Positions 23,991-60,215 of a stretch of DNA of 64,000 nucleotides are shown piece by piece (position 1 is the stretch's first letter; every line of letters begins with the position of its first letter). Source of the stretch: Haliclona indistincta (lineage: Eukaryota; Porifera; Demospongiae; Haplosclerida; Chalinidae). The DNA lies in assembly GCA_964017065.1 (NCBI GenBank), contig OZ024788.1, positions 2,949,266 through 3,013,265 on the forward strand. The letters run 5' to 3'. Under the pieces are notes generated by a model, which had not been told where the DNA came from, searched no databases, and worked only from the letters and a program-made list of their open reading frames with translations. Both the position numbers and the translations under genes were made by a program.

Positions 23991-23998
23991 ATCTGCAA

Positions 23999-25948: not shown

Positions 25949-28900
25949 ATGGCGAGCCAAGACAGTCCTCTACAGTTTGTGTTTCCATGTGGATCAAGAG
26001 GATATCACAAGTACCGCAAAATTTGGAGTCCGACATTAGGCGAAGAACTGTCTGCCACGGCAGCGAGGGACAATCGTTCTGATAAATACGCCGCGCTCTG
26101 AAATCACAGCTATTGATTTCCAGTAGCAGTCAGCTGGTCTTGGTAGGCTACCTTCCTCGTGAAATTTCAAACGAAACCTCAATTTTGATGACAGTTCATG
26201 GAGGACGAGTAATGTGTAAAGCCGTCACAGATACATGATTTAAAAGGGCTTATATCGAGGAAAAAGGTTTGGATCCAAGTGAGGAAAATGATCGAATAAT
26301 TGAGAAGTACAAGCAACTGGTGAATGAGCACTATAGAAAACCAATTGGTATGCGATTACATGTATTTACAACGAAAGTAATTTTGTGAGCTATAATTATT
26401 TTGTCAGAGCGCCTAAGGGGAAGGAGAATTGAGCCACGATTTATCCAAACATAAACTTTGCCGTGCGCGGCACATTAGCGAAAACGTTTACTACCAGCAG
26501 AACAAGGAGACTCGGTGACGGGGGCAGTTAAAGAGACATTTAGATTTGTGTAACTGTAACATGGTGTGATCAGTGAGCATCGCCTGAACATGTAGTCTCA
26601 GGTCATCTACAGGTCCACCGGTTCCCTATAGATCCTGTTGCTCGAGATTATCGTTTGTTATAGCTAAACATGTACCTTGGTGTCTGCTCTACATGTTGGA
26701 CTAGTTAAAATACAGATATGTGCTGTCTGTCATCTGCAGCACTCGTCAGAAGAGCCATGTCTAGGTGCAAAACCTGGAATTCTGATAGCTCTTATTCTTC
26801 CTGTGTGTAGCCGCTTAGTCAGAAGTATTTTTAGGTATCTGTAGAATCTAAATCACCTACCTATAACGCCAAACACGAGTTACAGGTTACATGTAACGTG
26901 AGTCTTGAGGTCTCTATTACTACATGTAGGATTGGAGTTGAACGCTCCTTCCATTTACAGTGCTTTGCAGAGAAGGAAAAAGACAAGGGTGCAGCTTGTG
27001 GTTTGAACAATACAATAACTATGCTCACTGACCATTGTAATGGTAACCACAATAAGCTAGCTTCACCCTGTCAGTTTTCTTGTGACAATTACCTATCTCC
27101 ATAGCGCTGTATGTGCTCCTGTTTTTGTAAATCAAGTGTGTTAAAAATAGGTTAAATTAATGATAGATAGTATGTAAAAATCATTAAGGAAACCAAAGTC
27201 TCGAGCAAGCAGGAGTGCATAATGAGTGAACGTGCTAAGTAGGCAGGAGTGGGATACTCCCACGCATTTGATTAAAATTCCAAGTCGACAGTCACACATG
27301 ATTGACATGTTTCTAAATAATAGTTAGACGCGCATCCAAGGATCTTCGCGATGGAGAACCCGTGAGCTGTTCCTATATAGTGTCCGAGCGTAGCGAGGGC
27401 ACTATAGTAACGGCGCGAGGACTTCTATATCGTGTAGGTCTGATTGGATGTGCTGTCCAACTGATTTAGACCATAGGAACAGCAAACAGAAACGACATGA
27501 ACGATGAGCAGGGACACGTGAGCGCTGTAAAAATTATTCAGAACCAGGATTCTATTATGAGGTCGTGGCAGTGGTGGGATTCCATTATGAGCTATAGAGA
27601 CCCGCAACTATGCAAACTGATTGGTCAATATCGCTTTTAGGCTGGGTTCGTCACTTTAGACATCTGTTCGAGCAATCTATGTGCTACTGTGCAGTTGGGC
27701 AACACCAGAGAGCAGATCTAAGTGTCTTTAGACGCGTACCAAGTGATATATCAGCGTTTGAATACTAACATATGTATTGTAGCCGCCATCTTGTTTTCCT
27801 TCCATCCGCCCCAACATAGGGACGCACTACTGTGCGTCTTTAATAAAATGGTGCTACTTTCGCTTCCTGTAGTGTTTGACTGTCAATCGTTTTTTATGCC
27901 TGTACACGCACAAGTAAATTTGACACTTCATTAGAGATTCATAGATTTCTTTTCTCCTCAGGTCCTAATGATGCCATGAAGTCGCTAGGGGTGGCAGTCA
28001 CTATGAATATCATCAACATTGGTGCCCAGGGTTATCCCGGCATTGGAAAAACTTCAGTTCTTGACCTAGCCCTAGGAAAAGATCCTGCTCCCACGAGAAC
28101 TAGTACAGACTGTGTTGATCCACCCTCTCGCTACTTGATGATTGACAGCGCAACAGAAGGAGTAGAGTGGGAGCATGTCACTACAGACAAGATGTTTGGC
28201 TTAGTTTGTGAAGCGATGAAAAAAACGATAGAGGACAATCCTCCGGCCATTGGTGAATCAAGCCTTCCGGCTACAACAACTAGCCAGTCTACAAGTGATG
28301 AGCTTTATTAAGTACAATTTCTGGCTCAAATGATCCTGAAAGGGCACATCCCATAGCAAACAGCTCTAATCAATCACCAACTGTAGCTTCATCAGTTTCT
28401 CATGATCCCTTTCCTGATTCTGTTTCCAATTCTTCTGTTCCTCCTTCAAATTCTCACCAAGATACTTACCCAACTTCTTCTCACCCAGACAATTCTTACC
28501 CAAGCTTCACTTTGTTCAGTGATCTGTTCGAAGAGTTGACTAACATCAAAAGTTCAGGAGTAATCTTCAACTCCCACTGGATGATGGTCACTGATTGCGG
28601 TGGCCAACCACCATTTTTAGATGCAGCTGCTCTCTTTCTTCGCAACAGCTGCCTTCAAATCTTTCCTGTCAAATTGAACGAGCCCTTAAGCAATAGACCA
28701 GAGTTTACGTACTTTTATGAAGATAACGTATGTGCTTCTTTTGATGAAGACTGTATCCCTTTGACACACAAGCATACAATCGAGACTCTGGCCAAGTCAG
28801 TAGCTTCTATTCAGCCGCCACACACACCATCAGCTACAAAGTGTCCAAAGGGAGCTAAATTCACTATAGTGGGCACATTTGAAGACAAGGCTCATGAATG

Positions 28901-31281
28901 CAGTGAGACTGTTAAAGAAAAAGAATCGATTCTCAAGCAAGTCCTTAAACCATATGAGCCATTTCGAGTACAGCTGGGTAAGAAGGCCATTCTGCCCGTT
29001 AATGCCACTGTCAATGACACTGAGACTACAAAGAAGCGGACAGAGTCAGCAAAGAAATTGAGAAGTCTGATCCAAAAGTCAGATGCTAACATCAAAATAG
29101 ACTTGAAGCTACGCTGGTTCGTTTTTCTTCTTAACATACTCAATATAGCTGAAGACAGAAGTGAAGCTGATGTACTTACACTTGATGAGTGCTATAAACT
29201 TGGAGATACTTTGGGTATGGATAAGTCAGAGACCAAGAAAGCAATCCAGTTCTTTCATGACATTAGACTGATCATGCATTTCGATACTCCAAAGCTCAGA
29301 GACTATGTTATTATAAACACCAAACCAGTGCTCAAGAATCTCTCTCGAATGATCAGTATATCATTTCTTGATGAAGAATTTCTTGACGATCACTATAACA
29401 TTGCCCTTCCTTCCGGCGCTAAAGATCTGCTTCAGTACTGTGGGCGTTTCGATAGGACCACACTAGAAAAATCTTGTATCAAGTTCAAAGAGCCGATCAC
29501 GCTACGATTCTTTCTTGACATACTAGAGCATGTTAAAATAGTTGTTCCAATTGACAAAGAATATTTTATGCCTTGTGCTCTTTCCTATGCTCCTGAACCA
29601 AGTGTGTCTAACTGTTCTTCCCCGTGGGTAATTAGATTGAAAGTAAGGCGAAAGATAGAGGATGTCGATATTCCAATCCCAGTGGGTTATCTACCTGCAA
29701 TGATAGTCTTCCTTCTCACGAAATTCTCGTCACACTTTTCATCTGATCGTAGGGACCAACAACATCGCAACAGAATCGAATTGCGATACAAGCGTGGAGG
29801 ACATGTGTACTTGATCGAGCGCTATCTTCAAATAGAAATTTATTTTTCCTTCTACAAAGAACTTCAACAAGATTGCGCAACCGTTCGAGATCTTGTTCGG
29901 GAGTCAATTTGTTTGACTGAAGAAAAGCTCTACATCATTCAAGAAGGAGAAGGTGCCATCACCAAGGTGGACTCCTTTCTATGCTCCTGTGGCAAGGGCA
30001 GTGCTCACCACACCTGTGCCTACAACCCTCTCTCAGGGATTCTGGAATGTGAGGAGACAGGAGAGAGCTGTAAACTGGATCCCAGTCACATGCTCTGGCT
30101 AGGTATGTGCTTAGCACTCACTAGTTCATTGTTTACTTTATAACTGGTACAGCAAAATTAATGATGCAAGGAGACTTTTGTGTTATACTATTTTCTCCTG
30201 CTACAGATAGCTCATCTACTCCTCGTGACACTAAATCCGCTCAACATCCCCTAGTGCAAGATAGTCACTGCTCTGTGCAAGGTATGTGCATGTACTCTGC
30301 ATAAGCTGTGCGCACACTAATTTAGAACTAGGTCTTTGTGGGCTTGCATTGGTTAGTAGCGTATAGCACTCCGCCCAATATAGTTTGATGAATGTCAATG
30401 GATCCACATTCTGTACTAAGCATGCACGAGTGGAATTTATAGTAGCATTCTATAGCATTGAACCAACTCCATTCACAAGTGCTTTGTTTGAACTTAATTT
30501 TGATAATAATGTTTTCAACCCAGATTTGATCACAATAAATGAATGTTAAGTTGCCGTACTAACTGATAATGCAATGTGAATTATGTGAGGTTTATCTTTC
30601 CACTGTCTCTATAGCAGCTGATTCTGGTACAATTTTACACAAGCTCATGAAACACAAATTCCCAGAGCACAAGTGCATGGATAAATCTTGCTACTGGACT
30701 GATGCTGGCTGGCCGTGTTGATGGGATCGAGTCAGAGAAGAGAAGCAACCTCAGCAGATTGATAGCTCTAGTGAACCACTGGACGGCTAATGTGGATGAG
30801 AGCAGCAGATGGAAGACACTGGTTGATGCTGTGAACGACTGTGGAGAGTATATTGTAGCTAAGAATCTAGCTAAAGACGTGTGTGTTCCTTGCCCACCAA
30901 CTCCAGAATGACCAATGTTTTTGTGTTATTACCACGCATTGTAGTATGACAATTCTACATATCAATTTTAGTTCATCATTGAAATTAATTTTTAGTTGAA
31001 ATACCATATCATATGCTGGCAATCTCCTTCAAGCTGGTCTTATTTGTCAGGCTGGTCACGACAATGCCCTTGCAGCTATGGGAACCGGTCCACATGGCAA
31101 GATAGCCTCGCTCATGTCAGAAGCTATGGGAAAGATCAACTCGATGCCTCATCTGTTTAGTGCACTGGTCTACATAATAGAGAAGAGATCCGGGGATGAA
31201 GCGTTCATTTCTCTCATATATATAAGATGCATCTGCACTGAGTTAGCTGATCATGGAGAGGAATCTCGGCGGAGAAATTAA
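25949..31281 (+). pseudogene. Locus B: broken HIRAN-GTPase-Death gene
   Basis: Same exon order as locus F, but damaged. The HIRAN exon (25949-26347) opens MASQDSPLQFVFPCGSRGYH and then has a TGA at 26099 and frame changes; GLVGYLPREIS is still readable in another frame. The GTPase exon (27962-30102) has P-loop GYPGIGKT and DCGGQPPFLDAAALF, but its 2141-nt length breaks phase by one base and the frame shifts near 28300 in the Ser-rich linker. A linker exon (30207-30281) is intact. The Death exon (about 30615-30911) shifts frame near 30678. A CARD-like remnant follows (30996-31240: NLLQAGLICQAGHDNAL), then a tail exon (31247-31281: ADHGEESRRRN, stop). At least three independent lesions argue for a pseudogene; sequencing error could explain one, not all. 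Confidence 0.75.
26350..27960. other. Intron of locus B
   Basis: No exon recognised. 27640-27850 is a diverged copy of the repeat end also seen at 32205-32412 and 37005-37207 (GTAGCCGCCATCTTGTTTTC). A TAGGAACAG/CTGTTCCTA inverted pair lies near 27370 and 27472. Confidence 0.5.
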
Positions 31282-32809: not shown

Positions 32810-32822
32810 TTTTGGCGCCAAT
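32797..32822 (+). promoter_or_regulatory. CCAAT-type and E2F-like box before locus C
   Basis: ATTGG (inverted CCAAT) at 32797-32801 is followed by TTTTGGCGCCAA at 32810-32821, 77 bp before the HIRAN ATG. The palindromic TTGGCGCCAA contains the E2F consensus TTTGGCGC on both strands. The same pair occurs before locus E. Confidence 0.6.
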
Positions 32823-32897: not shown

Positions 32898-35800
32898 ATG
32901 GCTAGTAGCCGAAGTGCTGGTATTAGCAGGTTGCAGTTCACTTTTAAATGTTGTGTTCGAGGCTACTACTACCATGGGAAAGGTTGGATTCCTGCAGTAG
33001 GGGAAGAGCTATCAGCAGAAATAGAAGACACCAATCCCGTTGATCAAAACGCCATTGCTCTAAAGTTGGCTCGCAGTAATCTGGATACGCAACATGTTGG
33101 CTACTTGCCACAAGAAATTTCAAGATTTATTGCGGGCATAATTAGACAAGGAGGTCATGTAGTGTGCAAAGTCAGAGACGCACAGATAAGATTCGGTTAT
33201 GGTCCAGAGGTACCAATCGAGGTGTCTGTAACTCTGCCAGATGAGAAGCTAAGGAGATTGGAACAGCTGATCAACAATTGCTACAAAGAACCGGTTTCGG
33301 TTGTCCCGTACACAATGCCTGAAGAGGATATTGATTCAGGTATGCCTGCTGCATGTTTTTATTTTGTTTAACCAAATTATCTAGGCAGTTAATGTTATGC
33401 AGCACCCAGAATCACATTATACATGAGTCTAGTATATCATCCCGTTCACACTTGAGCTTAGAACAGTTCCAGAAGCCCAATGTAAACGGATGTAGAACTG
33501 TTCTAAACCGATCTGTTTCGCTAGGATCGGTTCGACATACAAGTGTAGGTCCAGACCGATTCAAAACGGTTATTTTTTGTAGCATAAACGTACGGAAGCG
33601 ATCCCAAGTATGCATTTAGCGTACTAAAATGGGCATTTCGCCTTGCCCACCATGTGTCTGTAAGTTGTTTCACTGTCGAGGATTGCTGGACAATGGTGGC
33701 TTGGAGCGACAACGAAGTCCTTCAGCTAAGTCCTTGTAGTTGGGCGTTAACAGCCACACCCAATAAAAATGGTGTGGTCAAATCACGTGACACTAGAGGC
33801 ATGCAGTTGGCTCTGGATAGTATAAACGGGGTACAGAACCGTTCTCAGATTGATTCCAAAGACCGGATCAGAACAGTTCCACAAGTGTAAACGCGCTGTA
33901 AGGCTACGTTTACACGTAGACGATCAGTCCAAAAACGGGGAAATGTATTCGGATTCAACTCCATCGTTTTTTCTGTTTACACCGCTCCGTTTTGGCGGTT
34001 TTGCAAATGGAATTTGGGCGTGCTGTTTTCATGCGAGCATGCTAGCACTTGCTCATACGCATGAACCAGCGAAAGACACGCTATTATACTCTTTGATAGG
34101 TGTCATTTCAGGGTTCGTGCTAGTATTCTCTGCGAGTATGAAGGCTGAGATGTGCTCTTATCAAAAGTGTGTATCCATTTTTGGTGTTTATAATACACGA
34201 GCGGTTTTCCTGCCTCCGTTTCCAAGTCTCCACTTAAGTAGGTGAGTTTTAATTATATGCGTGTAAACGAGAGGCCTAAACAGAGACAAATTCATTTTGG
34301 CAACCCACAAAATGTCCATACAAGAGTATTCGTGTTATGCAACCATTTTGGGGAAAACCCGAGGGGAATCTCCTTAGTACATGAACAAAAACAACAGCTA
34401 ATTATTTTTGGTGACCAAATTAATGATATTCATGACGTTTACAAGTAGCTGTAATTTTCTAGTCAAGGCAAAAACACCATTTCCTGAAGTTGTATTTCTA
34501 AAACAAACATGCCATTTATTCCCTTGTACCTTAGGTATAAGATGTGCTAACCAAAACCAGAATACATGACAATTCCTAGGAACCACTAGCCATCAAATGA
34601 ATCTAATTGACAGCACCATACGTGTGGTTTATGAAAATATGGTCACAATTATAGCAAATTTCAGCAACACAGTGTTAGCCATCGCAGAGTGATGAGCTCA
34701 CCCTGTGGAGACTAAGCACGATCGGTTATAAACAGCTATGTGGTGCCAGACAGCACAGCCTGTGTTGTAATATTGTGTACGAGCAGCGCTCGCAAAATAT
34801 CTTTGTACATGTATATTACTGAATTTTATCTGTATCTTTAAGAGGACAATGGTCGGGAACTAATGGACCATTTGCACGAGGCATGGCAGCATACATCACA
34901 AGCTTCCTTTCGGTCCATGAATGGGCAACACCCACTGCTCAATACAAATATAATGGCGTACTCCTGTAGTACACTTTGCACTTGGTTTCATTGTCTTTAG
35001 CAATGATATACAGCTGCTGATTACTGCATGATCACAGACCTGGCCATGCCAAACTACAATGTATTATTGTTTTACAACAATCTGTCAAGCGCACATAGCA
35101 TACTGCACGACGAAGTAGCAGTCGTCCGCCATAAATTAATACACTGATACGTCTATGGCTTAAGTAGTGTCATTTATGTGGTTCATAAAGTAGCCAAGAT
35201 CTGTACTGTGAGCTGCACGTTAAACTCGAGCTTGCTAGTGTAGACTGTCAAATGCTTACAGCAGCTGGAATATGCGTATTTTGCTTAGTCTATCATTCAG
35301 GCCTTGTTTACACGAATACGTTTTCGCCCAAAAACGCAAACTTTGGCTTGCTGATCCGAGTTTTGTTTACACGAGTTCGACTGAAAACGAGTGTATCCGC
35401 GTGTTGAAACGTTTTCTAAACAAAAACGCTCTCAAAAGTGAATACTTTTATAAACGACTACATTTTGACATCGTGTAAACGCCGTATCCGCGGATCGAGT
35501 GGTGAAAACGCGCGCGCGATTTACTGCGCAACTGCAGTATATAGGACACTTCAGAACACGCCTACTATTATAGACACACCCAAACGATCGAGTAGTGAAA
35601 ACGCGTAGCTGGCTACGTGTAAACGCTACAGACGTTTTTTATCGTATTCGTGTAAACATTGCAAAAGCTCTAGCTAGAAACGCATTACTTGCTAGAAACG
35701 TATTCGTGTAAACAGGGCCTAAAAGCAGATCGGTCTAGCAAAGCCTGACAATAATGTAGTTACTCATGAACCAAGATGCAACTTGTAACTTCGCTTAGGG

Positions 35801-38800: not shown

Positions 38801-41800
38801 GGAAGCGCGCACGCGCCGCGTATTAAAGTAAAGTAAACTAGATGATGGCTAGGACGATAAAAATACACAACCTATTATGACGTCTAGTTTCCATATACTT
38901 AGCTATTTTTAGATAGTATTCGGCTGGGACCTTTAGCTCCGCCCCATCCATAAAACTATGCATTCTTTTCGCCTAAGTCGGTCCCTTCGCTCTGTAGCGC
39001 TCTGGAGAAGGCTCGTGATCGTGCCCACTGACTGGTTACTGGCCCCACGAGCTGAATTATTGGTAATCCATGCATATATAGTTCTGAAGCTGACTGCCAG
39101 GCAAAGCTCCACAACGATTATTTCTCCTGTATAACGAAGCTCGTGAAAATGAGACGTCACAGAAGGCCAGTCACCTTGCAAGAGGCGAACAGCGCACTAA
39201 ATGCTGTTCTTTACATTCTAGACTTTCTATTTATATAGTAGATACTTACTTTAATCCACAGCTAAAGTTTGATAACTCTTTCATGCATAAAAATTTAGAA
39301 AGAAAAAAATCTAAAATTAATGATATTCATACGCACCCGCCACCTTAAGACTGTTAACGAGCATGAATCTCAGTAAATAACAGCCAAACGCTAAAATTAG
39401 TACACGCTAAATGTCTTCAATCGCAAAGCGCTAAATTAAGTGGTTGCTAATAATACTGGTTTTAAGGTAGCCTCACCCAAACAGCTATCGGTTACCCTAG
39501 CTTGGCATGTGGGTGCCCGAGGGTTAAGTGTTTGACTTTCTTTGTATAATTAATGATAATGGATCAAAACATGGCTGTTTACTATCTATTATAATTTATT
39601 GCTCATAAAATAACTCACTTCTGCTTGGTTATGTGACACAATGATTTGAAAGGTGCCTGCAAAGTTGGGAGAGTATACATGTAGATTCTGTCACATGCTG
39701 GCCATAGCTTTCTAATAACTACATCATTTAGAATACAGTAGAATACAGTGAAACCCGGCTAATCCAGTCAGCCCTGATTTATATTGCACGTTTACACACT
39801 TACTGCTTACATCAAGTCTTACAACTACTTAAAGCTTTTGTGGCACAGGAAACGTTTTTTAAATTTTAGCTTTGTGTAACAAGGTTGTCTGGTAGTAGTA
39901 ACACCATCGCTAAGCACACGAGTCATTAATTTTGAGCTTTTGTCTCAACAATCCGTTAATGAATGAGGCGTGGTTTCGTGTTTGGCTGCCACAAGGTTTT
40001 ATGCGATACTGACGGATGATGGTGAGTGGCTGCCGTATGCATTAGACAGACAATGTACAGATCTTCATCTGGAATTTAGCCAATGGCTGCAGTAGAGAGA
40101 TGACCGCGTTTGATCAGGTTTCACTATAATTTATTATAATAACTATAGGTGTGGCTATTTAGCCACAACAAACCTGTCAGCATTTGCACCCCGGCTGGCT
40201 ACTCATGCAGCAGCGTACGAACTCTTGTTTCTTCGTTTTTGTTATTAATGCTTTTAAGATGTATGCGCATCTTAAAAGCACTGCTGCAGAATAAGGATTT
40301 CGAGCAACACTAGTGCGACCGAGGTCTCACTTGGTGCAGGTGGCAAGAGCACCTGCAGCATGCCCTAAACGTGTGTGCTGGCAGCATTGCAGTCTTTGGT
40401 ACAATCGTTGTGCTCAATTTCATGGCATAATGTAGATCATTTTGTGCAGATTCTGTAAGTCCTGATGTTGCTATGGAATCACTAGGGGTAACAGTCACTA
40501 TGGAGATCACCAACATTGGTACCCAGGGCTATCCTGGTGTTGGCAAGACATCTGTTCTCGATCTCGCTATGGGGAAAGATCCTGCTCCCACGAGAACTAG
40601 TACAGACTGTGTTGATCCACCCTCTCGCTACTTGATGATTGACAGCACGACAGAAGGAGTTGAGTGGGAGCATGTCACAACAGACAAAATGTTTGAACTG
40701 GTGTGCAAAGCATCGAAGAAGATCATTGAAGAAAATGTCCAAGTTTTTGCTGAATCAGATGAACCAGCAGCGACAACTAACGATATGCAGTTGCCTTCAC
40801 AAGCAAGCAAATCTTCATCACTTGATAAACTGCCAGATCCTTCACATGATCGTGATGACTCACCTTACTCTGTGTTCCCTGATCTCGTCAATCAGTTATC
40901 AACCAGCAAAAGTTCAGGAGTAATTTTCAAATCTCACTGGATGATGGTCACTGATTGTGGCGGCCAACCACCATTTCTAGATGCAGCTGCTCTCTTTCTT
41001 CACAACAGCTGCCTTCAAATCTTACCTATCAAACTCACAGAGCGATTGAACAAGAAACCGAAGTTTTCATATTTTTTCAAAGGTGTGCGTGCTGCTTTTG
41101 ATGAAGACTGTGTCCCTTTGACACACAAGCAGACAATTGAGACTCTGGCCAAGTCAGTAGCTTCTATTCAGCCGCCATACACACCGTCAGCAACTGAGTG
41201 TCCAAAGGGAGCTAAATTCACTATAGTAGGCACATTTGAAGATGAAGTAGACCAGGAAACCATTGAAAATGCAGAATCGATCCTCAAAAAAGATTTAGAA
41301 CCGTATGAGCCATTCCAAGTCCGGTTGGATAAGAAAGTTATTCTACCGGTTAACGCTGTTGTCAGTGATGCTGAGGAGCGAGCAAAGTCTGCAAAGAAGC
41401 TTAGAACTCTGATTCAAAAGTCAGATGTTAGTATGAAAGTAGACATAAAGTTACGCTGGTTTGGGCTTCTTCTCAACATACTCACGATAGCTGAGAAGGA
41501 ACAGAGAACTGTACTTACACTAGATCAGTGCTATAAACTCGGAGATACTTTGGGTATGGGCCAATCAGAGACGAAACAAGCAATCCAGTTCTTTCATGAT
41601 GTTAGTCTTATCATGCATTTTGATACTCCAAAGCTCAGAGATTCTGTCATCATCGACACCAAACCAGTGCTCAACAAGCTCTCTCGATTACTCAGTGTTC
41701 CGTTTCTTAAGGAACAGTTTCTTAATGATCATTTTAAAATCCTCTTTCCCTCTCGAGCCAAAGAACTACTTCAATACCATGGACGTTTCGAGATAACCAC

Positions 41801-45315: not shown

Positions 45316-47461
45316 ATGGCGTCATCTTCTGGTGCATGTGGTGATGACGGAGCCGGGGTAAGTTGATCAACTCATAAGTGCTAATTGATTCCGTTTATTA
45401 TACCAGGAGGCTGAGAGGGCTGCGTTTCAAGATCATTACGCCGACCTGTATCGGGCTATCCAGAATCCAACGACAGTGACGACTCTGGCTGTTGGACTGT
45501 ATTCAGCCGGTCTATTGCCAGTAGAAGCGAGGAAAAAAATATGCAATGGATCATCAGTAGACTGTGGTAAAGCGGTGACGGAGCTCCTAGATGAGGTAGA
45601 AACAACAATCCGAGTAGATCCCAACAATTTCTATAAGTTTATGGAAGAACTAGAAAAAGATAGTCGAATGAAGCCCCTCTGTGAAACACTGAGATCTAAA
45701 TGTGGTAAGACTAGCTCTAGCTGTATACAGTATAGATAGTTTCATGGCAAAGGGGTGAAGGAATCTTTGTGCTGAATCTAATGAGAAAAGACGCGTTATG
45801 ACTGGTTACAACGTGCAAAACGCCCACGCTAGTCTTGGTGGGTAACAAAATTGGAACGACCATAAACGCGGCAGCATCGGCACAAAACTGGTATCAAATT
45901 ACAGATCTTCAACCAGAGCATCCACTTTAAGTACAATCATCAGCAACATGCAACTTGGGCCTACAGTTTCACGAAGGCAAATCATGCTATTGTGGGCATG
46001 GCTCACGGACCCACGGTAGAGCCTCTGTTGCTGATGATTATACTTAAAATGGATGCTCGGTTGAAGATCTGTCCTTTGATGCCAGTTTTGTGCTCGGTTG
46101 AAGATGTCCTTTGATGCCATTACGGCCCACCATCACGGATTCGACTCGTTTCTTGCTTAAACAGTATCTACTCAAGCCAGCAGACAAGCATGGTCGTCCT
46201 GGGATAGTGGAAAGCTGCTTCTTACCTTCTAGAAGGCCAGTTCCATCCAATACGAAACTGTACGTACGCGCACCGTCGGCCATCACAAGTCTATCTTTAG
46301 AAACACGGCCATCATGTGTGGAAGTGCAATTTTTAATCAAGTGCGTGTGAGTGTCCCGCTCCTACTCTCTTTCCACGCTCTCTCTTAATTATGCGCTCCT
46401 GGGTTGGTACATTTGTCAAAAAAGAATGGAAACAAGATTTTGAAATGAAATGGATTGTAACAATAGCAGTGTAATGCTACCTCCCTAAATTAACTGATTT
46501 CGATAGTTGTGGTTAATTTAATAGGGAGGTAGCATTACACTGCTATTGTTACAATCCATTTCATTTCAAAATCTTGTTTCCATTCTTTTTTGACAAATGT
46601 ACCAACCCTAAATCTCTTGCATTTTGGTTAAAGTGTTTTTATTACTTGTCATTATTGTGATTAGCCAAATTTACTTACGGATCATGAATATAGCTACTGT
46701 GTACCTGTATGATTGTGACTACATGTTGTGTAATTTTGAGCAATCTGTCTCATTTTCCAAGACTGTCAAATACATGTTGGCTTGTGTATTGAAGTATTGT
46801 GATGGCAGATTCTGCTTGTGTCTTGATTTTTTTAGGCCGGCATACAAGAAAGTTCATTTTTACAATAGTAAAATTACATTTTAAAAGTTGAGTTTTAATC
46901 CTGGCCATCAAATTTGCAGGAACACAGGAGAAATCTGCTGGTGATCCATCTGCTACTCTTGGTAAGCAAGATCACACTGCTACTCTGGGTAAGCATCATC
47001 ATGAACTCGTAGTTTCTTACTAATCTGACTAGTGATTACCCTATAGTAAAGGGTCAAAATTTTGGTAATTGATATAGGTTTTTGTATTGGGATAGTAATT
47101 TAATAGTTCCTAGTTCACATTGTTAGTATTGGGTTATAACAGCAGTGAATTTGTGTGGTGCTAATGATTTCATAACTGGTTCATGTTATCTGCAGGTATT
47201 GGTGACCTTGCTAAGGTGAAGAATGCTTTGGAGAGAGTCAATGACTGGCAGTCTCTTGGGTTGCAGTTGGGACTTTTCTATCCTAGACTAGATCAAATAG
47301 GGAAGAATAATCGTGCTCAGATTGTGGAGTGTAAGACAGAGATGATAGCAGACTGGCTGAATCGAAAAGACGATGTACTCAAAGTTGGTACACCTTCGTG
47401 GTCGGTACTGAAAGCAGCCCTCAAAGGGATAGGAGAGAACGCAGTTGCTGAGGTTATTTAG
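45316..47461 (+). CDS. Locus D: CARD-like plus Death domain adaptor
   Basis: Four exons: 45316-45357 (MASSSGACGDDGAG), 45407-45704, 46920-46961, 47196-47461; 215 aa, ending TAG. Exon 2 has a six-helix CARD-like pattern: YADLYRAIQNPTTVTTLAVG, LYSAGLLPVEARKKI, AVTELLDEVETTI, FYKFMEELEKD, MKPLCETLRS. Exon 4 is a full Death domain (GDLAKVKNALERVNDWQSL ... SWSVLKAALKGIGENAVAEV). The first intron is 49 nt; later junctions are phase 1. Size and order match vertebrate CRADD/RAIDD (CARD then Death), which recruits caspase-2, although homology to CRADD itself is not shown. The neighbouring caspase-like gene at 24.3 kb would be a logical partner. Assignment of the CARD fold is by helix pattern only. Confidence 0.75.
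45901..46072. repeat. Foldback repeat in locus D intron
   Basis: CAGATCTTCAACC...AATCATCAGCAACA pairs with TGTTGCTGATGATT...GGTTGAAGATCTG: arms of about 50 bp and a ~70-bp loop. Confidence 0.8.
46399..46613. mobile_element. Foldback MITE family 2, intact copy
   Basis: Arms of ~95 bp (GGGTTGGTACATTTGTC, GGATTGTAACAATAGCAGTG) meet at a short loop. It is the uninterrupted counterpart of 7048-7852. Confidence 0.85.
46640..46830 (+). repeat. Dispersed repeat, also at 20175-20350
   Basis: About 90 percent similar by eye to 20175-20350 over 170 bp. It lies in the locus D intron next to the MITE. Confidence 0.75.
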
Positions 47462-48179: not shown

Positions 48180-48815
48180 GAGAAGAGTGTCAATGACTAG
48201 AAGTCTCTTGGATTGCAATTAGGAAAAAAACGGGCACGATAATCTTAAAAAAGTTGAGCCATGTAAGATAGAGATGATAGCAGCCTGGCTAAAGCAACAA
48301 GAAAGGTACCCCTTCGCCGTCAGTGCTGAAAGCAGCTGAGAATGAGATAGCCAACTAGTTATCTCTTACTAGTGATGGAACCAATTAATTTTATCTACTG
48401 AGACTGTAAAGCAGAAAAGGCACAAAAGAGGTAATTCTAACATACGTATAAAATGCATCTGCTATACCATTGTTCTATAGCTGGTTACGGAGAGGAATCT
48501 CAAAATAAGATAAAGCGCAGAAAGCATGAACAAGGTAGAAATTCTGAACCCATGTTAATTCTATACTTTTATACTAGTGACTAACGAGACTGTAAAGCAG
48601 AAGAATCACAAAAGAGGTATTTCTCTCATACATAAAATGCATCTGTTATTTTCATGGTTTTATAGCTGGTCTCGGAAAGGAATCTTGGAGGAGAAAAGCA
48701 TAAACGAGGTACATTGTACTCTGAACCTATTAGTTCACATTCACACATGTGCTATTCTTTTGTAGCTGGTTCCAATGAATCATCCTCTAGTAAAAAGAGA
48801 CATACATGAGGTATT
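48180..48815 (+). pseudogene. Decayed Death exon with tail mini-exons
   Basis: 48180-48370 is a diverged Death exon (readable MIAAWLKQ near 48275) with several stops. It is followed by four to five tail mini-exons: near 48396 (TVKQKRHKR), 48482-48534 (AGYGEESQNKIKRRKHEQ), 48577-48615 (TNETVKQKNHKR), 48666-48708 and 48768-48808 (SNESSSSKKRHT, stop). The order and the downstream sequence match 59.2-60.9 kb, so this is the remnant of a duplicated locus F 3' end. The mini-exons could still be used as alternative 3' exons by locus D. Confidence 0.6.
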
Positions 48816-49587: not shown

Positions 49588-49626
49588 ATTGGTCCGGCGA
49601 GTGCGGCGACGAATTTTGGCGCCAAT
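49588..49626 (+). promoter_or_regulatory. CCAAT-type and E2F-like box before locus E
   Basis: ATTGG at 49588-49592 and TTTTGGCGCCAA at 49614-49625, 133 bp before the ATG. The flanking GACGAATTTTGGCGCCAATT is nearly the same as before locus C. Confidence 0.6.
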
Positions 49627-49757: not shown

Positions 49758-52700
49758 ATGGCTAGTAGCCGAAGCGCTGGTATTAGCAGGTTGCAGTTCA
49801 CGTTTAAATGTTGTGTTAGAGGCTACCACTACCGTGGAAAAGGTTGGATTCCTGCAGTAGGGGAAGAGCTATCGGCAGAAATAGAAGACACCAATGCCGT
49901 TGATCAAAACGCCATTGCTCTCAAGTTGGCTCGCAGTAATCGAGATACGCAACATGTTGGCTACTTACCTCGAGAAATTTCAAGATATATTGCAGACATA
50001 ATTAGACAAGGAGGTCATGTAGTGTGCAAAGTCAGAGACGCACAGATAAGAATCGGTAAAGGTCCAGAGGTACCAATCGAGGTGTCTGTAACTCTACCAG
50101 ATGAGAAGCTAAGGAGATTGAAACAGCTGATCAACATTTGCTACATAGAACCGGTTTCAGTAGTCCCGTACACGATGCCTGAAGAGGATATTGATTCAGG
50201 TATGCCTGCTGCATGTTTTATTTGTTTAACCAAATTATCCAGGCAGTTAACGTTATGCAGCACCCAGAATCACACGACTGTACATGAGTCTAGTATATTG
50301 TCTGTCTCAGGTCATACACGAGTATTCATTTTGGCAACCCACAAAATGTATACAAGAGTATTATTATGCAACCATTTTGGGGAAAACCCAGGGGAATCTG
50401 ATGGGAGGGTTTCTTGCAGACAGAATTGCTGCATGCAGTTTGCTTGCCTATTGACAGGCATCGAATGTAGCAAATTTCAGCAACGCAGTGTTAGCCATCA
50501 CAGAGTGATGAGCTCACCCTGTAAAGACTAAGCAAGATTGATTGTAAAGAATTTTTCTTTAGTTGTGCGAAAGGTATACGAAGCTAAAACTGCTCAAGCA
50601 AGCTCATCTGCCATCTGTGTAGGTATTTATGCAAGCTATTCGTCGAGTGCTGCTCGTAAGCGATATTACAGCTATGTGGTGCCAGACAGCACAGCCATGG
50701 TACAATAATTGTGGTCAATTTCATGACATAATGTAGATCATTTTGTGTAGATTCTGTAAGTCCTGATGATACTATGAAGTCACTAGGAGTAGCAGTCACT
50801 ATGAAGATCACCAATATTGGTACCCAAGGCTATCCTGGTGTTGGCAAGACATCTGTTCTTGATCTCGCTATGGGGAAAGATCCTGCTCCTATGAGAACTA
50901 GTACAGACTGTGTTGATCCACCATTACACCATATGATGATAAAACACGAAGATTCAGATGAGTGGGAGAAGGTCACCACTGATGAGATGTTTCAGATGGT
51001 GTGTGGAGCAGTTAAGAAGAAGATAGATGAAATGCCCCCAGACAAAGCTGAATCTGATGAACCAATGGATGCAGATGGGCTGTCTATAAATGGCGAATAT
51101 GCAAGTGTAACAGTGAATGCTACTACCAATGAACGTACTGAACGTGTGACTCCGGTGATCGAACAGGTACTACCTCCTCTAGCTGGCAGCACTCATCCAA
51201 CACCTAATCTTCTTACTGACCACTTACCTGGTCTGTCTCACGATTCTTCTAGTGATTCCTCTAATTCTGTTCCTCCTTCTATTTGGTTCAGTGAGCTCAT
51301 GGATCAACTAACTCAAAAGGCTGGGTATGAAAAGTCCGGTGTAATCTTTAATTCCCACTGGGTTTTTGTCAATGATTGTGGTGGCCAACCACCATTTTTA
51401 GATGCTGCTGCTCTCTTTCCTCTAAACCGATGCCTTCAAATTTTCCCTCTCAAACTTGATGAGTCACTGAATGAGAAAGCCGAGTTTTCTTACTATGTCA
51501 ATAATGAGCCTGCCAAAATCAATGAATGTGTGATGTTGACACACAAGGAGGTAATTGAGACTATGGCCAAGTCAGTAGCTTCTATTGAGCCTCCATACAC
51601 ATCATCAGCAAATGTGTATCCATCAGTTGCCAAATTTACAATTGTAGGCACATTTTACGATAAAATAAACCAATGCTCTGAAACGCTAGAAGAGAAAGTA
51701 TCCACCCTCGAAACACTTCTTAAGCCTTATGAGAGTTTTCGCGTCGGTAGTGAGGTTATTTTACCTCTGAATGCAATCACGCAAAACACGAGAGAGTGAA
51801 AATATCTAACCAAGGAGCTGCAAGAGCTGATATTTGATACGTCCGATGTCACAACAGAAGTTGACATGAGGCTGTGCTGGTTTGGATTGTACCTCAGCTT
51901 GCTCGCTAAAGCTGAGAAGGATAAGAAAGTTGTGCTTACACTTGAAGAGTGCTACACGGTCGGTGAGTTTCTGAGCATGAGTAAAGATGAAACCAAACGT
52001 GCACTTCAGTTATTTCACAGCATTGGTCTCATTATGCATTTCGACACTCCATTCGCAAATCTACAAGATTATGTCATTGTCTTTACGAAGCCAGTGCTCA
52101 AAACTGTCTCTCGAACAATCAGTGTCGCTTTTCTTGACTTAAAATTTCTTAAAGGTCAAAATATTATTGTTTCTAGTGAAGATAAGAAGCAACTCCAATA
52201 TCATGGTTTTTTAAGGCTGAGCACAGTGAAGAAGTGCCTTGATTCTAAGCTTACAGCAGAATTCTTGTTAGATATTCTCAAACACGTTAAGATTATTGCT
52301 GAGCTTCCTGGTAACGAATATTTTATGCCTTGTGCCCTTTCCTATGCTCCTGACAATTTAAAGAAGCTTTCTCACCCATGGGTGATCAGATTAAGAGAAA
52401 AACGAGGGATTCGACGTATTGATATTCCCATACCAGTGGGTTATCTGCCTACTCTAATTGTCTTCCTTCTCACTCAAGATGAATCACTTTTTTCAACTAA
52501 TTGTAAGAAGCGGCAGTATCGAAATTGTATTAATTTGCAGTATCGTCCGGGAGGGACTGTCTACTTTGTAGAGCGCCACCTCCAGCTTGAGGTGTACTAC
52601 TCTCTTTGTGATGATCTTCCTCATCAGTGCTCTATTGTGCGAAGGCTAGTACTCGAGTCTATAAACCTGACCGAAAAAAGGCTTAGCATCAAAGAAGGTG

Positions 52701-53418
52701 CTATCATCAAGGTGGACTCTTTCTTATGCTCCTGTGGCAAGGGCAGTGCTCACCACACCTGTGCCTACAACCCTCTCTCGGGGATTCTGGAATGTGAGGA
52801 GACAGATGAGATTTGTACAAGCGTGGACTCTAAACATTTGCATTGGCTAGGTATGTTACATTAACTGCACTAAGATAACATCACACTAGCTTCCTGAATA
52901 TTGTTATGTATTGTACAATTAAGTCACTTTGTCTATCATAATAGGGTTAGTCTCCAAACCATGCTCTCAACCTAACCTTGTGAGTGTGCATGAAAGTGCA
53001 AAGTGTCAGTCTGATGAACAACAAGGTGAGTATTCTTAGGAAATACTGCACATGAATGTATGTGTATTTTTAAAACCCATTATTCAGCTATTTTTATGTG
53101 TGTATTGTTCATATAGGCACATATTATTCTGAAAAACCAGAGATGTGTGATCTGATGACTCACATTGCTTATGAGGCACCTACCAGGTGGCGTCAAGTAG
53201 GACTTCAATTGAGAATACCGATAGCAACACTGAATGGATTCAAGACACAAAATGATGATCCAAGTGAGCTCTACATCCAAGTATTTGAGCAATGGGAGAG
53301 GGAACAGAAAGTGCCGTACACATGGAGAACCATGATCAAAGCTCTCAAGGCAGTTAAAGAACATAGAGTAACTAATGACATCATAGAATGGTTGAGAACA
53401 AGAGAAGAAAAAGATTAA
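49758..53418 (+). CDS. Locus E: HIRAN-GTPase-Death gene with one in-frame stop
   Basis: Exons 49758-50199 (HIRAN, MASSRSAGISRLQFTFKCCV), 50751-52850 (GTPase), 52945-53025 (linker), 53117-53418 (Death, stop); every junction is phase 1. The GTPase exon keeps P-loop GYPGVGKTS, DCGGQPPFLDAAALF, the COR-like part and CSCGKGSAHHTC. The only lesion seen is TGA at 51797-51799 (after THE residues NTRE), between the GTPase and COR-like parts; the frame is otherwise open for all 2100 nt. The Death domain (MCDLMTHIAYEAPTRWRQVG ... TWRTMIKALKAV) is of a different type from loci C, D and F. HIRAN here is about 95 percent identical to locus C, but the GTPase part is the most diverged of the four. It could be a recent pseudogene, a null allele, or a truncated HIRAN-GTPase product. 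Confidence 0.75.
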
Positions 53419-53855: not shown

Positions 53856-53867
53856 TTTTGGCGCCAA
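53856..53867 (+). promoter_or_regulatory. E2F-like box before locus F
   Basis: TTTTGGCGCCAA, 109 bp before the ATG at 53976. The surrounding sequence differs from loci C and E, so the box itself is conserved beyond its flanks. Confidence 0.6.
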
Positions 53868-53975: not shown

Positions 53976-56900
53976 ATGGCTAGCGGTCGTCGTCCACAGT
54001 TTACTTTTTCATGTTGTGTAAGAGGCTACCAGTATCACGGTAAACAAAAAGATTGGATTCCTGCAGTGGGGGAAAAGCTATCGGTGGAAATAGAAAGCGA
54101 CAATCCTCGCGATCAAAACGCCATTGCGGTTCACAACAATCAGCATCATGTCGGCTATCTACCAAAAGAAATTTCAAGTACTATTGCAGAGATGATCAGA
54201 AAAGGAGGGCGTGTTGCGTGCAAAGTCAGAGAGCCGGCACGGATAAGAAGAGGGATAAGAAGCGGGAATGGCGCGGAAGTTCCAATTCAGGTGACTATAA
54301 CCGTTGATCAGAGCAATGCGAGAATGCTAAAAAGATGCGAGGAGCAGATAAGCACTCTGTACAAAGAACCAGTTCTAACTGTTCCCACGTCTAATGAGAA
54401 ATCTGGTATGCTGGCTGCATGTTATGATTCTGTGTGGTACATGTATCATATACACAGATTTACCATTGATTTTCTTATAGCTATGTCATCACAGGAACTC
54501 TCGACAACTATTGCTGAGTGTGGAGGTAAGTAGTAACCTATCACATTAATATTTGCAGTCTTGACAGCAGTAATTGATAAGTCAGGATTATAAACATTAT
54601 TGCCTGATAGAGTAGTAGTCATTATAGCAGTATAAGCTCAAAATTAAAAAGTAATATGTTGTGAAACAGTGGGTAAATAAAACGGTTGTCTGAGGTTCAT
54701 AACCCACGCAACGTGCATTTTTCTAATAACTACTTATAACTTCAACGATTTACATAACAGTATGGGGAAAATAATACATGAAGCGTCTGTGACTGCTATC
54801 TCGACTGTCGAGCAATAGATCGACGCGCTTCAAGCGCAGCAGCATCTTGCCCACAGACGTACAGAGCGAATTTCTGAACTACGATCTAGATTAATTTTTA
54901 AACAATATTTGTGGTCTAGGCTTGCTGTTTTGCAGCGTTAGCAAAGGATTATCGAAAAATCGCTCTATACATCTGTGCGCGCTGGAATTTGTAAGCTGTA
55001 AACGAAGTTCTTTCTGGAGCAAGCAAGCCAAACTGGAGATAACTGCCACAGACCAGTCTTTACTAGACGAGCTCACTGCTCCACGTTAGTTAATACTTTG
55101 TGACTGAAACTTGCTATAATCGATGTTATCGATAGACAAAACAAAGTACATACTGGAGCACGCCTGTACAAAATACCATTGTACAGAAAATAAAGCTACT
55201 TACAAAGTTATGAATCTCATTAAATTGGCACACCACCACCTTAAGGTGGTGGGTACAGGAATTACCAAAAACAAATTATTCATAAGAAAATATGGGAATG
55301 CACGTTGAAGATACGAATTATTACTAGTTAATTAACTAATTTTTACTACATGTAGTTAGATATCATTGCGGTTTCAGACTTTTTGTTCTCCATAGAAGTA
55401 CGTGGATTTTTATACACAATTTTATTATGACGCCTGGATTTCTTTTTTGATTCTGGATCTGATAGCTTCAATATGTAGAATAAATGATATTCATGACTTC
55501 AGCAAGTAGCTTTATTTTCTAGCCATAGGTATTTGTATAGTTTGCTTGTGTATCGATAGTCTTTGACCATATCAAGTTTCATCCGCGCTGTGTTAGCCAT
55601 AACAGAAAGACGAGCCCGCCCGATGGCGACCAAGATGGTTACATTTTTCTTAAGTTATGTGTAGCGTACGAAGCTAAAACTGCTCTAGCAAGCTCATCTG
55701 CCATCTATGCAAAAACCATAAACTTATTAGACTATGTAACCGGGACTGGAAACGAAGCTTGTGCATGAAACACTCAGCGTTGGCGTTGCTATGGCTAATG
55801 AATTGCCTACGAACAGCAATGGCGACTATACTGAGCATCAAAAAGTTTTGTATTCAATCTGATAAGTAGTTTATAGGAACAGTAGCTTGCTGAAACTATT
55901 AGCTGATTCGAGCAGTGTCAAAGGCATAACTACACAGCCTTTTCGATTGGCTTATCACCTGTACAACGAGAATAAAGGGTGAAAGAGACGATCGTTTCAG
56001 TAAATTCACGCCAGTTTTGCAGATGTTATAAACGTCTGGACACTTTAAATCATCCAGCATGCAAAAGAACTGTTGAATAGTAATCGGTGCTTTACACAAA
56101 GACAAAACAACTACGAGGCGACAAAACTTTGCATCGTCGAAGCTTACCACCGGACACCTCACCAATGAAGACTTTGTTGTGATGAACATTTTCCCCACAC
56201 AAATAGCACCATGCAACTAAGTTCAGCCCAAAAAACAGTTACCTTCGTCTTCATCGCTCATTGCTGAAAATGGTAAGACCTGACAAACATTTTGTATCGA
56301 AATAGGCTGTAAAACAACGTCCCACATCCGCAACAATGAATGATTAGTTGCCTGTACAGTTGTGTAGATAGCAGCGCACGAGTTTGAGCCAACTTATGGT
56401 AGTAGCTATAACCATCTAGGGAACGTAACATGGCGTTCTAATGCAATAACGACTGTTTTTCTGTCCGAACTTGACCTTCTTTTGACAACAAGTCAGGAAT
56501 ATGACTAACCTAACAATGCAGAGTGTTTCACATGAAATTTATTGCTACTATGCACTCACGTGATCTCGTTTCCAGTCTCGGTTATGTAGTCTAATAAGTC
56601 AATGCAAAGACGGTTGTATGGATTTCGCCAAGCTATGCTCGTACACGACTGTGTGCTGCCAGGCAGCAAGAGTGCGTTGCTGTAATACGTAATAATTTCT
56701 GAAAACCATTGAATTTCAGATTCTGTAAATTCCGATAATGCCATGATGTCTCTAGGAATAACAGTCACAATGAATATCATCAATATCGGTGCCCAAGGAT
56801 ATCCCGACATTGGTAAAACATCTGTTCTTGACCTCACTATGGGGAAAGATCCAGCTCCCACGAGAACTAGTACAGACTGTGTTGATCCACCCTCTTGCTA

Positions 56901-59900
56901 CTTGATGATTGACAGTGCAACAGAAGGAGTCGAGTGGGAGCGTGTCACTACAGACAAGATGTTTGAACTGGTGTGTGAAGCAATGAAGAAGACTATTGAA
57001 GAAAACCTCTTAGACACGGCTGAATCACAGTTTCCAATAGTTATGGAAAGTCAGTCTTCAAATGGCTCCAAGTGCAATGAGGCAACATCTGTTGTAGATC
57101 AGCAGACTTATACTCATCCTCTATCAAATACCACTAACAGGTCATCTGCAGCTGTTTTGTCTCGTGATTCTTCTGTTGGTTCTTCCGTTACGTCTTTGCG
57201 TTTTTCTGATTATTCAGTTCCTGATTCTTCTCTTGATGCCAATGACCCTGGTTCTCCCTACTCTGGCTTTACTGTGTTTCCTAAGCTGCTTGAAGAGCTA
57301 TCAACCAGTGAAAGTTCAGGAGTAATCTTCAACTCTCACTGGATGATGGTCACTGATTGTGGCGGCCAACCGCCATTTCTAGATGCAGCTGCTCTCTTTC
57401 TACGCAACAGCTGCCTTCAAATATTTCCAGTGAAACTAAATGAGCCTCTAGATAAAATACCAGAGTTTTCGTACTATCTCAATGGTGCCTGTGCCTCTTT
57501 CAATGAAGACTATGTGCCTTTGACTTACAAGCAAATTCTTGAGACCTTGACCAAGTCAGTAGCCTGTATTCAACCACCTCACACAGCACTAGCTACTGAG
57601 TGTCCAAAAAGGGCTAAGTATACAATAGTTGGTACATTCGAAGACATGGCAAATGATTGCAGTGAAACAATTGCCGAAAAAGAATTAATTCTTCAAAAAG
57701 AATTTCAACAGTGCAAGCCGTTTCGAGTTCAGCTAGGAAAAAATATCATTCTTCCGATCAATGCTACAGCCGTTGACACTGAAACCAAGAAGGAACGGAC
57801 GGAATATTCCAAGAAGCTTAGACAGCTATTCAAAAAATCTGATGTTAGCATGAAAGTTGATATGAAGTTACGTTGGTTTGGGCTTCTTCTCAATACAATC
57901 AAAATAGCTGAAAATGAGCGTAAGGCAGTACTTACACTTGACGAGTGCTATAAGCTTGGAGACACTTTGGGTATGGATAAATCAGAGACCAAAGAAGCCA
58001 TTCACTTTTTTCACGATATCAGCCTGATTATGTATTTTGATACTCCAAAGCTTAGAGACTATGTCATTATAGACACCAAAGCGGTGCTCAACAAACTCTC
58101 TAAAGTAATCAGAGTGTCATTTCTTGATGAAAGTTTTCTTGCCGACCGCTTTGATATTGTAGTTCCATCTAGAACCAAGGAACTTCTCCAACACCATGGT
58201 CGCTTTAGGAAAGACACATTAGAAAAGTTTGGCATTGAATTCAGAAAGCCAATAACATCGCAATTCTTCCTTGACATTTTAGAACACGTCAAGATTATTG
58301 TGCCGATTAAAAAACAATCTGAATATTTCATGCCATGTGCTCTTTGCTATACTCCTGAAGCAAGTGTGTCCCTTTCTTCCCCCCCATGGGTGATCAGACT
58401 GAGAGTGAAACATGGAATTGAATTAGTCTACATTCCTATTCCAGTGGGTTACTTACCTGCCATAGTAGTGTTTCTTTTAACAGAATTCTCGTCAAACTTT
58501 TCAACTGAACGTCGCCATCGACAATATCGAAATATGATCAAATTGCGGTATGATCGAGGAGGATTAGTATACTTGATCGAGCGTCATCTTCAACTAGAGA
58601 TATATTTTTCTCATTACAAGAAACTTCCACAAGAATGTGCAGTCATTCGAAATTTTGTTCTGGAGTCGATAAAGTCGACAGAAGAAAAGCTTCACATAAT
58701 TCAAGAAGGAGAAGGTGCCATCACCAAAGTGGACTCCTTTCTATGCTCATGTGGCAAGGGCAGTGCTCGCCACACCTGTGCCTACAACCCTCTCTCAAAG
58801 ATTCTGGAATGTGAGGCAGATGAGACGGGAGAGAACTGTAAACTGGATTCCACGCACATGCTCTGGCTAGGTAACTATACTGCTTATACTATTGAGAAAA
58901 TAGGCTCATTCTTTAATTTTTAGGTGAAAAATCGCCTACAACACAACCAGCTGATGCTGACTTAGTATCTATTCAAGCCAGTTCAACCAGCAGCAGTACT
59001 CAACAAGAACAAGCAACTGCAACAGGTAAATCTTCATCGGTTAGTCAGCATTAGAACTGAGTTATCTTTTCGTAGCTGATTCTTGTGTTGCTATATCTTC
59101 TGAGGGTACACCAAGCTCGTCTGCTTCTCATTCCTCTAACACACTTGGTAAGTGCATGCCCAATCAAAGTTAACTGTTTTTAGTGTGTGTATAGGTATTG
59201 GTAAACTGGTTGATGTGAAACGTGCATTGAAGTGTGTGAATGACTGGCAGTCTCTTGGACTAGAATTAGGACTTCTTGAACCTACACTAGAGGCAATAGA
59301 GACTGATTATCATGGCAAAGTTGGGCTGTGTAAGCAAAAGATGATAGCAAGTTGGTTGAAACAGAAGGACAATGTACTCGAAGTTGGTTCTCCTTCATGG
59401 TCAGTACTGAAAGCAGCACTCAAAGAGATGGGAGAGAATGAGGTAGCAGACCATTTATCTTGTACTGACGACTGCACTAGAGATGAGTGTGTCGTTGATG
59501 ATGTTAGAAGAATTTTGCCCTCAGGTTTGTTTCAGTGAGCTAAACCCAAATTTCTTGTCTAATTATGCGCTTCTGTCATGTAGACGAAGATGAAGTACAG
59601 AGTAAACGTGTATCTAAGCGGGAAAAGCACAAAGGTACATGCATTGTAATGGCGATTTTATAAAGTGTTGTTACCGTATTTTTTTGTAGCTGATTGTGAA
59701 AATATAAAACAGAAGAAAAGCAAAAAAGGTAATTCACACATACATTAAATTGTACCTGTCACGAGACATAGGCATAACAACGAAGACGTGCTTCAGGTTG
59801 ATGCAAAGCGAGGCGGAATTTTTTTCCAATTAATATTCATGAGTGACATCATTTCCGCATTAATTTTTTTCTTACTCATTTGCGAATATAGCTGCGTTGG

Positions 59901-60215
59901 ACTTTTAAAAAGCGATAAAAGGTTAGCAACTAAATTTGCCGTTGTTTTGCTGTGAATTGTGGGGTGTGGCTAGTAGGTGTGATCTTCGGCAGACAAATTT
60001 TTGTTCCGGTGACTGCCGTCTTGCCTGACCGGTTATTATGTCTATGCGTTACTCATCCATCTTTCTATTATAGCTGGTTGTGGAGAGGAATCTCTACTAG
60101 GAAAGCATTTCCGAGGTATTCTGCACTCACGTTAAATCACATTCACACATGTGGTCATACTTTTGTAGCTGATTATGAAGATGAATCACTCTCTCCTGCA
60201 AAAAGACATAAATGA
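53976..60215 (+). CDS. Locus F: intact HIRAN-GTPase-Death domain protein
   Basis: Ten-exon model, 1102 aa: 53976-54405 (HIRAN), 54481-54525, 56720-58870 (GTPase), 58924-59025, 59076-59147, 59195-59524 (Death), 59584-59634, 59690-59728, 60074-60115, 60169-60215. Every junction is phase 1 with GT-AG sites and no lesion. HIRAN: FTFSCCVRGYQYHG, NPRDQNAIAV, HHVGYLPKEIS. GTPase: P-loop GYPDIGKTS, Ser-rich linker, DCGGQPPFLDAAALF, VGTFEDMA. COR-like helices follow (LRWFGLLLNTIKIAE...LGDTLGMDKSETKEAIHFFH), then CSCGKGSARHTCAY. Death: GKLVDVKRALKCVNDWQSLG. The tail exons encode SKRVSKREKHK, KQKKSKK and SPAKRHK, likely nuclear targeting. HIRAN binds 3' ends of single-stranded DNA in HLTF; a role in nuclear DNA sensing or damage-linked death signalling is inference. 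Confidence 0.85.
54530..56715. other. Second intron of locus F
   Basis: Contains a copy of the 4138-4640 repeat (54767-55245), two abutting TTAAGGTGGTGGG ends at 55236-55255, and a stretch like the locus E intron (55665-55720). A minus-strand 105-aa frame at 55899-56216 (GAICVGKMFITTKSSLVRC) has protein-like composition but no recognised family. Confidence 0.5.

Follow-up and report, generated by a model that had tools for sequence, protein, structure and literature searches.

Most of what is known about ROCO proteins, in which a ROC GTPase and a COR domain stand in tandem, comes from LRRK2 and DAPK1. In the DAPK1 group the tandem is followed by a C-terminal Death domain, according to the passages of PMC6337361 on that group. 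The ROCO genes of Trichoplax, at least 17 in number, likewise combine ROC-COR with CARD and Death domains and have mixed partners, and the LRR-ROCO candidate immune receptors of brown algae are an expanded family whose exons are shuffled at constant intron phase (relevant passages of PMC11378527). Four brown algae hold 9 to 47 LRR-ROCO genes each, which the same passages say exceeds other organisms reported to date (PMC11378527). Outside the ROCO proteins, animal NLRs share the plan of a sensor, a nucleotide switch and a death-fold output, and also show tandem birth and death.

Here we describe an array of genes that resembles all of these systems and differs from each. The window, meaning the whole stretch of 64,000 nucleotides that was analysed, covers positions 2949266-3013265 of contig C6 in a genome of 144 Mb and 46 contigs. 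Unlike the DAPK1 group as presented in PMC6337361, the array has no protein kinase in front but a HIRAN domain, and belongs to a far larger family. The passage on Trichoplax in PMC11378527 does not name HIRAN, and we count at least about 150 core loci in the present genome. Brown algae shuffle single phase-2 LRR exons in the account of PMC11378527, whereas in the present family entire front modules and Death exons appear to be exchanged, mostly in phase 1. While NLRs use NACHT, the switch of the array is a ROC-COR GTPase, and some of its relatives have both in one frame. The new part would be a ROCO protein with a new front domain, HIRAN, in an unusually large modular family; the combination of ROC-COR with Death was already known.

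A preliminary description of this DNA knew of no account of HIRAN joined to a Death-domain GTPase. This agrees with our search, since none of the open-licence papers among the matches listed, in the text available from them, joins HIRAN to a ROCO or Death domain. HIRAN, Roco, COR domain, Kelch and GTPase are all absent from a paper on sponge NLRs (PMC12909245), and HIRAN is absent from the available text of PMC3482391. We rejected PMC8195603, PMC6040629 and PMC7641849 as HIRAN papers because "hiran" there belongs to the surname Hirano.

Gene content of the window

Introns, Death domains and caspase domains in the window point to an animal, probably a sponge, as the preliminary description supposed. 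The genes are called A to F below; L-numbers are loci in the same genome, P-numbers are database proteins, and C4 and C7 are other contigs. The features are as follows.

23989..25188 (+): gene A, Death then caspase-like domain (Death identity, caspase profile, motif alignment)
25949..26346 (+): gene B HIRAN exon, broken by stops (tblastn with HIRAN of C, E and F; sequence)
27962..30102 (+): gene B ROC-COR exon, changing frame near 28300 (COR-A 30.6 bits; 66% to F)
30617..30912 (+): gene B putative Death-like exon of the L037 class, frameshifted (74% over 77 aa to the L037 exon)
32810..32821 (+): TTTTGGCGCCAA palindrome, 88 nt upstream of the C start
32898..33339 (+): gene C exon 1, HIRAN, from ATG to phase-1 donor
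40450..42438 (+): gene C exon 2, ROC-COR core
42502-42574 and 43736-43788 (+): gene C linker exons
43841..44140 (+): gene C Death exon (PF00531, 31.3 bits)
44757-44810 and 44859-44908 (+): gene C basic tail exons, up to the stop
45316..47461 (+): gene D, a separate gene (CARD-like exon 45408-45704; Death exon 47195-47461)
49614..49625 (+): TTTTGGCGCCAA palindrome, 144 nt upstream of the E start
49758..50199 (+): gene E exon 1, HIRAN
50751..52850 (+): gene E ROC-COR core, one TGA at 51797-51799
52945..53025 (+): gene E linker exon
53117..53418 (+): gene E Death exon, of a class other than C/F, and gene end (PF00531, 25.7 bits; 22-27% to C and F)
53856..53867 (+): TTTTGGCGCCAA palindrome, 120 nt upstream of the F start
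53976..54405 (+): gene F exon 1, HIRAN (PF08797, 37.6 bits; fold)
54481..54525 (+): putative alternative micro-exon of F, phase 1 on both sides, containing an ATG (sequence reading)
56720..58870 (+): gene F exon 2, ROC-COR core, its COR-B end rich in Cys and His
58924-59025 and 59076-59147 (+): gene F linker exons
59195..59524 (+): gene F Death exon (18.6 bits, below the cut-off; 62-64% to the C Death domain)
59584-59634, 59690-59728, 60074-60115 and 60169-60215 (+): gene F basic, NLS-like tail exons

The model of gene F has nine exons (53976-60215, 1087 aa), with GT-AG borders and all introns in phase 1. That of gene C has seven (32898-44908, 986 aa), with one phase-2 intron and the others in phase 1, and its intron between HIRAN and core measures 7.1 kb. 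Both genes end in basic, NLS-like exons. Gene E is open apart from the TGA in its core and stops after the Death exon. In gene B the HIRAN exon is broken and the core changes frame, and the frameshifted 3' exon is tentatively read as Death-like from its similarity to the Pfam-silent exon of L037. The preliminary description had proposed a tandem family with HIRAN, a ROC-COR GTPase and Death, which our analysis supports. It had also assigned the order of HIRAN, GTPase/COR, linker, Death and basic tail to B, C, E and F alike; we find this order in C and F, but E lacks the basic tail and B is broken.

The damage of the window copies may be allelic, since another assembly has versions of the B and E cores with less damage. 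P0099 is an unbroken counterpart of the E core (93% identical), and P0084 is a B core that reads through the frame change and ends at 601 residues (82-91% identical). P0121, from the same assembly, is an E-type HIRAN (92.5% identical). The longest contig of each of the three clusters has 155,501 bases, which suggests that all three lie on one contig.

Against the PF00531 cut-off of 22.6 bits, the Death exons of C, E and D (the last with 25.6 bits) score above and that of F below. The Death exons compared fall into four classes: A, C, D and F; E; B with L037, which is Pfam-silent; and L010, whose class scores 22.3 bits in L010 itself, just below the cut-off, and 25.2 in L042. A comparison of the C Death domain with the PDB gave only an insignificant match to PIDD (E 0.78). 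The Death domain of gene A is 56-68% identical to those of C, D and F (61-68% to C and F), and gene A is a possible Death-Death partner of the array proteins. Its caspase-like domain (24267-25188, 61.4 bits) has QCSR for QACR and SHVE for SHGE. Caspase activity is doubtful because the QACR motif reads QCSR, and gene A could be an inactive caspase homologue beside the receptors. Gene D has an exon that looks CARD-like by eye, on which Pfam is silent. This exon was considered as part of gene C and rejected, as C stops at 44908 and D starts from an ATG of its own.

The TTTTGGCGCCAA palindrome, which we take to be E2F-like, occurs three times in the window against 0.01 expected in shuffles. The sites lie 88-144 nt upstream of the ATG of each intact HIRAN (C, E and F) and, in the window, only before HIRAN; the palindrome is absent upstream of B and from L039, the locus of a fifth HIRAN next to a core. 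TTTGGCGC is found at 45287, just upstream of the gene D start, and also before the D counterpart at L039:9449. Its position hints that gene D and the HIRAN genes might be under shared control.

Several other features of the window can be recorded. At 48180-48810 there is a degenerate Death exon with pieces like a basic tail, a remnant of a further array member before E. A Ty1/copia-type element with gag, integrase and reverse transcriptase matches, split by stops, occupies 8723-13100, and a Core-2/I-Branching glycosyltransferase frame (60664-62148, minus strand, 98.7 bits) adjoins gene F. Rfam gave nothing at gathering score within the window, and the window exons scanned had no match to NACHT/NB-ARC with LRR.

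The HIRAN exon and its probable link to the core

The curated cut-off of PF08797 is 24.7 bits. The HIRAN exon of F exceeds it with 37.6 bits, E (23.0) and C (22.9) are just below, and the Pfam profile gives no match in L039. The fold is also that of HIRAN. The dN/dS values of this exon are 0.25 for C/E, 0.27-0.28 for C/F and 0.29 for E/F (the last by one method only), and dN/dS is well below 1 in the core also. Each HIRAN exon of C and F begins with ATG, and Pfam finds no kinase in it or in the core exon of either gene.

In HLTF, residues Y72 and Y93 stack on the bound dinucleotide, as stated in the structural passages of PMC4666394. We set the HLTF numbering by the NN90,91 of those passages; in the alignment the Y72 column, which falls in a loop with a two-residue insertion in F, and the Y93 column hold D or G and R or V, respectively, in F, C and E, so that both stacking tyrosines are lost. 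N90 is also replaced in all three, and N91 and D94 are retained. The earlier proposal that the array encodes sensors for DNA ends is therefore not upheld. The array HIRAN further differs from that of HLTF/Rad5 in having no SNF2 helicase and in standing next to ROC-COR. A comparable case are the CnuH helicases of CoCoNuTs, bacterial McrBC-type systems, in which an N-terminal OB-fold resembling HIRAN is likewise found in GTPase-centred systems. CnuH is a helicase and not a ROC-COR protein, however, the authors prefer an SmpB-like, RNA-binding reading of the fold, and the passages of PMC11090510 on these HIRAN-like OB-folds mention no joining of HIRAN to ROCO or Death.

We infer from splice phase and from evolution that HIRAN and the core are joined in one protein. 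In C, E and F the HIRAN exon is closed by a G|GTATG donor, which in B lies some codons further upstream. Just past this donor a 2-nt indel separates C from E, and P0121 is in a different frame there. The acceptor of the core is in phase 1 in the C6 genes and in their relatives on C7, in which the conserved coding of the core begins at the acceptor (DAKASLG), ahead of the first Met. The C6 cores have an ATG near their start, and the residues between acceptor and ATG are conserved (DSVSPDVAM, DSVNSDNAM). The exon chains of F and C are open in phase throughout, and NACHT shares a single frame with the core in the relatives L041, L042 and P0011. On the other side, the genome has HIRAN genes that can be read as one exon (L045), the 7.1-kb intron of C is long, F may have another first exon, and L039 has no clear HIRAN start, GGTATG-type donor or TTTTGGCGCCAA palindrome.

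Indirect evidence for the join also comes from the dN/dS of HIRAN, from the TTTTGGCGCCAA sites ahead of the intact HIRAN starts and from a comparison of C with E. The HIRAN exons of these two genes show 27 differences over 442 nt (94% identity), and their introns are about 90% identical in collinear pieces. Within the core, the two opening blocks of 100 nt are 91 and 84% identical, after which identity is mostly 54-71%, with conserved blocks of 80-90% further on and less than 50% in the linker. Since the second block is conserved in every pair (92% in C/F), only the first core block supports an exchange between C and E. It points to an exchange, between the two genes, of a front cassette that took in the core start.

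HIRAN adjoins a core at 5 of 51 HIRAN loci, where 0.21 would be expected by chance. All five pairs lie in one array on C6, so that the adjacency reflects one founder event, and with a single founder and this chance expectation we rejected adjacency alone as proof of fusion. The HIRAN part of the joined model was compared with 113 candidates of fused length, none of which matched at E <= 10. Spliced proteins are hardly expected in that database, as its inspected proteins are exon-like open frames.

HIRAN is also found away from the array. Loci L002, L005, L006 and L007, which are among the best PF08797 matches of the genome, adjoin by eye transposase-like frames, so dispersed DNA elements may be further carriers of HIRAN. 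At L046:505-1625 a HIRAN frame is followed by what looks by eye like a C48/Ulp1-like peptidase frame.

The wider ROC-COR family

In the large exons a COR-A match follows the P-loop GTPase, with 37.4 bits in F, 30.6 in B and 27.8 in C (Pfam cut-off 35.3). ROC and COR thus form a tandem in one polypeptide, as in ROCO proteins, and the ROC-COR fold is found as well. The cores have the motifs that we take to be G1 (GxxxxGKT/S) and G3 (DxxG) of GTPases, with T-F-x-D presumably as G4, and G29, G34, K35, T36, D215, G218, Q219, T308 and D311 are invariant in 63 aligned cores. A search with the F exon, in which the best 61 of 447 candidates were scored, complements the COR-A search. The latter gave at least 139 matches in the genome among the best 150 of 209 candidates scored, and 14 further rows bring the number of distinct core loci to at least 150; 71 of 140 gaps between neighbours are below 50 kb. 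The earlier label of a HIRAN family is too narrow, as HIRAN precedes only five of these cores.

The front modules of this family are HIRAN, NACHT and probably Kelch. The three C7 loci examined for it have, a few hundred bases upstream of the core, a Kelch-like exon, which scores above the Kelch_4 cut-off of 21.6 bits in L010 (30.3) and below it in L014 (19.1) and L019 (16.4). Pfam gives no significant match in the exon that adjoins the core at L010 and L014. We examined 27 loci (26 on C7 and one on C4) for the donor of this adjoining exon and found a core acceptor in 25, 19 of which have a phase-1 donor 43-59 nt before it. NACHT lies in the frame of the core in L041 (84.1 bits, frame of 2029 aa), in L042 (72.6 bits, frame of 1388 aa, with an N-terminal Death domain of 25.2 bits) and in P0011 (76.7 bits). 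The preliminary description saw the array as parallel to NLRs but without LRR repeats, a separation that these close relatives of the core do not support.

Two nucleotide switches are thus found in one protein, in an uninterrupted frame, in L041 (C6:9375000-9384000), L042 and P0011. By eye, L040 (C6:8977000-8985500) also has NACHT and ROC-COR in one frame, and L041 has LRR-like repeats between the two. The LRR profile reached 19.2 bits in P0009 against a cut-off of 23.4. Residues 1-300 of P0110, which by eye resembled a nucleoside phosphorylase in front of a ROC-COR core, were rejected as a further front module, with no support from Pfam or PDB sequences.

An exon of a Death class occurs in the 1.5-kb flank behind the core at 21 of 27 loci (L010-L036). 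The back module changes too, since an E-class exon is found in L032 and L034 and an F-class exon in L042.

Possible function of the array

On balance we favour the view that C and F are each one HIRAN-ROC-COR-linker-Death-basic tail gene, forming a branch of a very large modular ROCO family. In this family a conserved ROC-COR core follows varied N-terminal modules and precedes varied Death exons, mostly with phase-1 borders. The N-terminal module would hold or detect a ligand, for HIRAN probably nucleic acid or a nucleic-acid-bound protein, and the ligand would alter the nucleotide state and dimerisation of ROC-COR. The exposed Death domains could then recruit Death-domain partners by homotypic contact, for example the products of gene A or gene D. 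In characterised ROCO proteins ROC-COR acts as a switch that follows nucleotide and dimerisation state, and it is by analogy with them that the front module would set the state of ROC-COR here. A more specific version is plausible, but we give it a little less than an even chance: the family would be combinatorial intracellular receptors on an LRRK2-type ROC-COR, in which HIRAN, Kelch or NACHT with LRR-like repeats as fronts and Death domains as outputs are swapped at phase-1 borders and through recombination within the core exon, and the HIRAN branch would be nucleic-acid sensors that trigger Death signalling.

If the fusion is real, the genes might still serve as a genome-stress switch rather than as immune receptors. 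A nuclear HIRAN would read replication or damage intermediates and Death would lead to apoptosis, as in DAPK1 or PIDD. The HIRAN fold of HLTF, the NLS-like tails of C and F and the presumed E2F-like character of the upstream palindrome fit this possibility, and ROC-COR-Death is the plan of DAPK1 in the passages of PMC6337361 on it. We nevertheless consider it rather unlikely, as both base-stacking tyrosines are lost and NACHT is present in relatives, and the expansion, the broken copies and the differing copies in the other assembly resemble an immune receptor family more.

Without a fusion, HIRAN would form a small gene of its own, duplicated along with the ROC-COR-Death gene next to it. The HIRAN of L045, which can be read as one exon, is a precedent, one founder adjacency would suffice and 0.21 are expected by chance, the C6 cores have their own ATG, and none of the 113 candidates has a fused open frame. 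We judge this improbable, because the HIRAN frame is conserved only to the phase-1 donor and lost right after it, the core opens at a phase-1 acceptor with conserved residues ahead of its ATG, the palindrome in the window stands only before HIRAN, and relatives carry NACHT in the frame of the core. It is more doubtful still that the array is a functionless, decaying by-product of exon shuffling with a transposon-derived HIRAN. Two of the four window copies are broken, the fifth HIRAN at L039 looks degenerate, and HIRAN frames beside transposase-like frames are, by eye, scattered in the genome (L002, L005-L007), but such decay is at odds with the low dN/dS of HIRAN and core, with the open exons of C and F, and with the less damaged B and E cores of the other assembly.

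If the favoured reading of C and F as fused members of a modular ROCO family is true, the HIRAN domain would here act in signalling rather than in repair. The occurrence of HIRAN, NACHT and probably Kelch before the same core would then amount to a domain swap made by nature, from which one could learn how the front module drives ROC-COR. It would also mean that an early animal possesses a GTPase-based class of receptors beside its NLRs.
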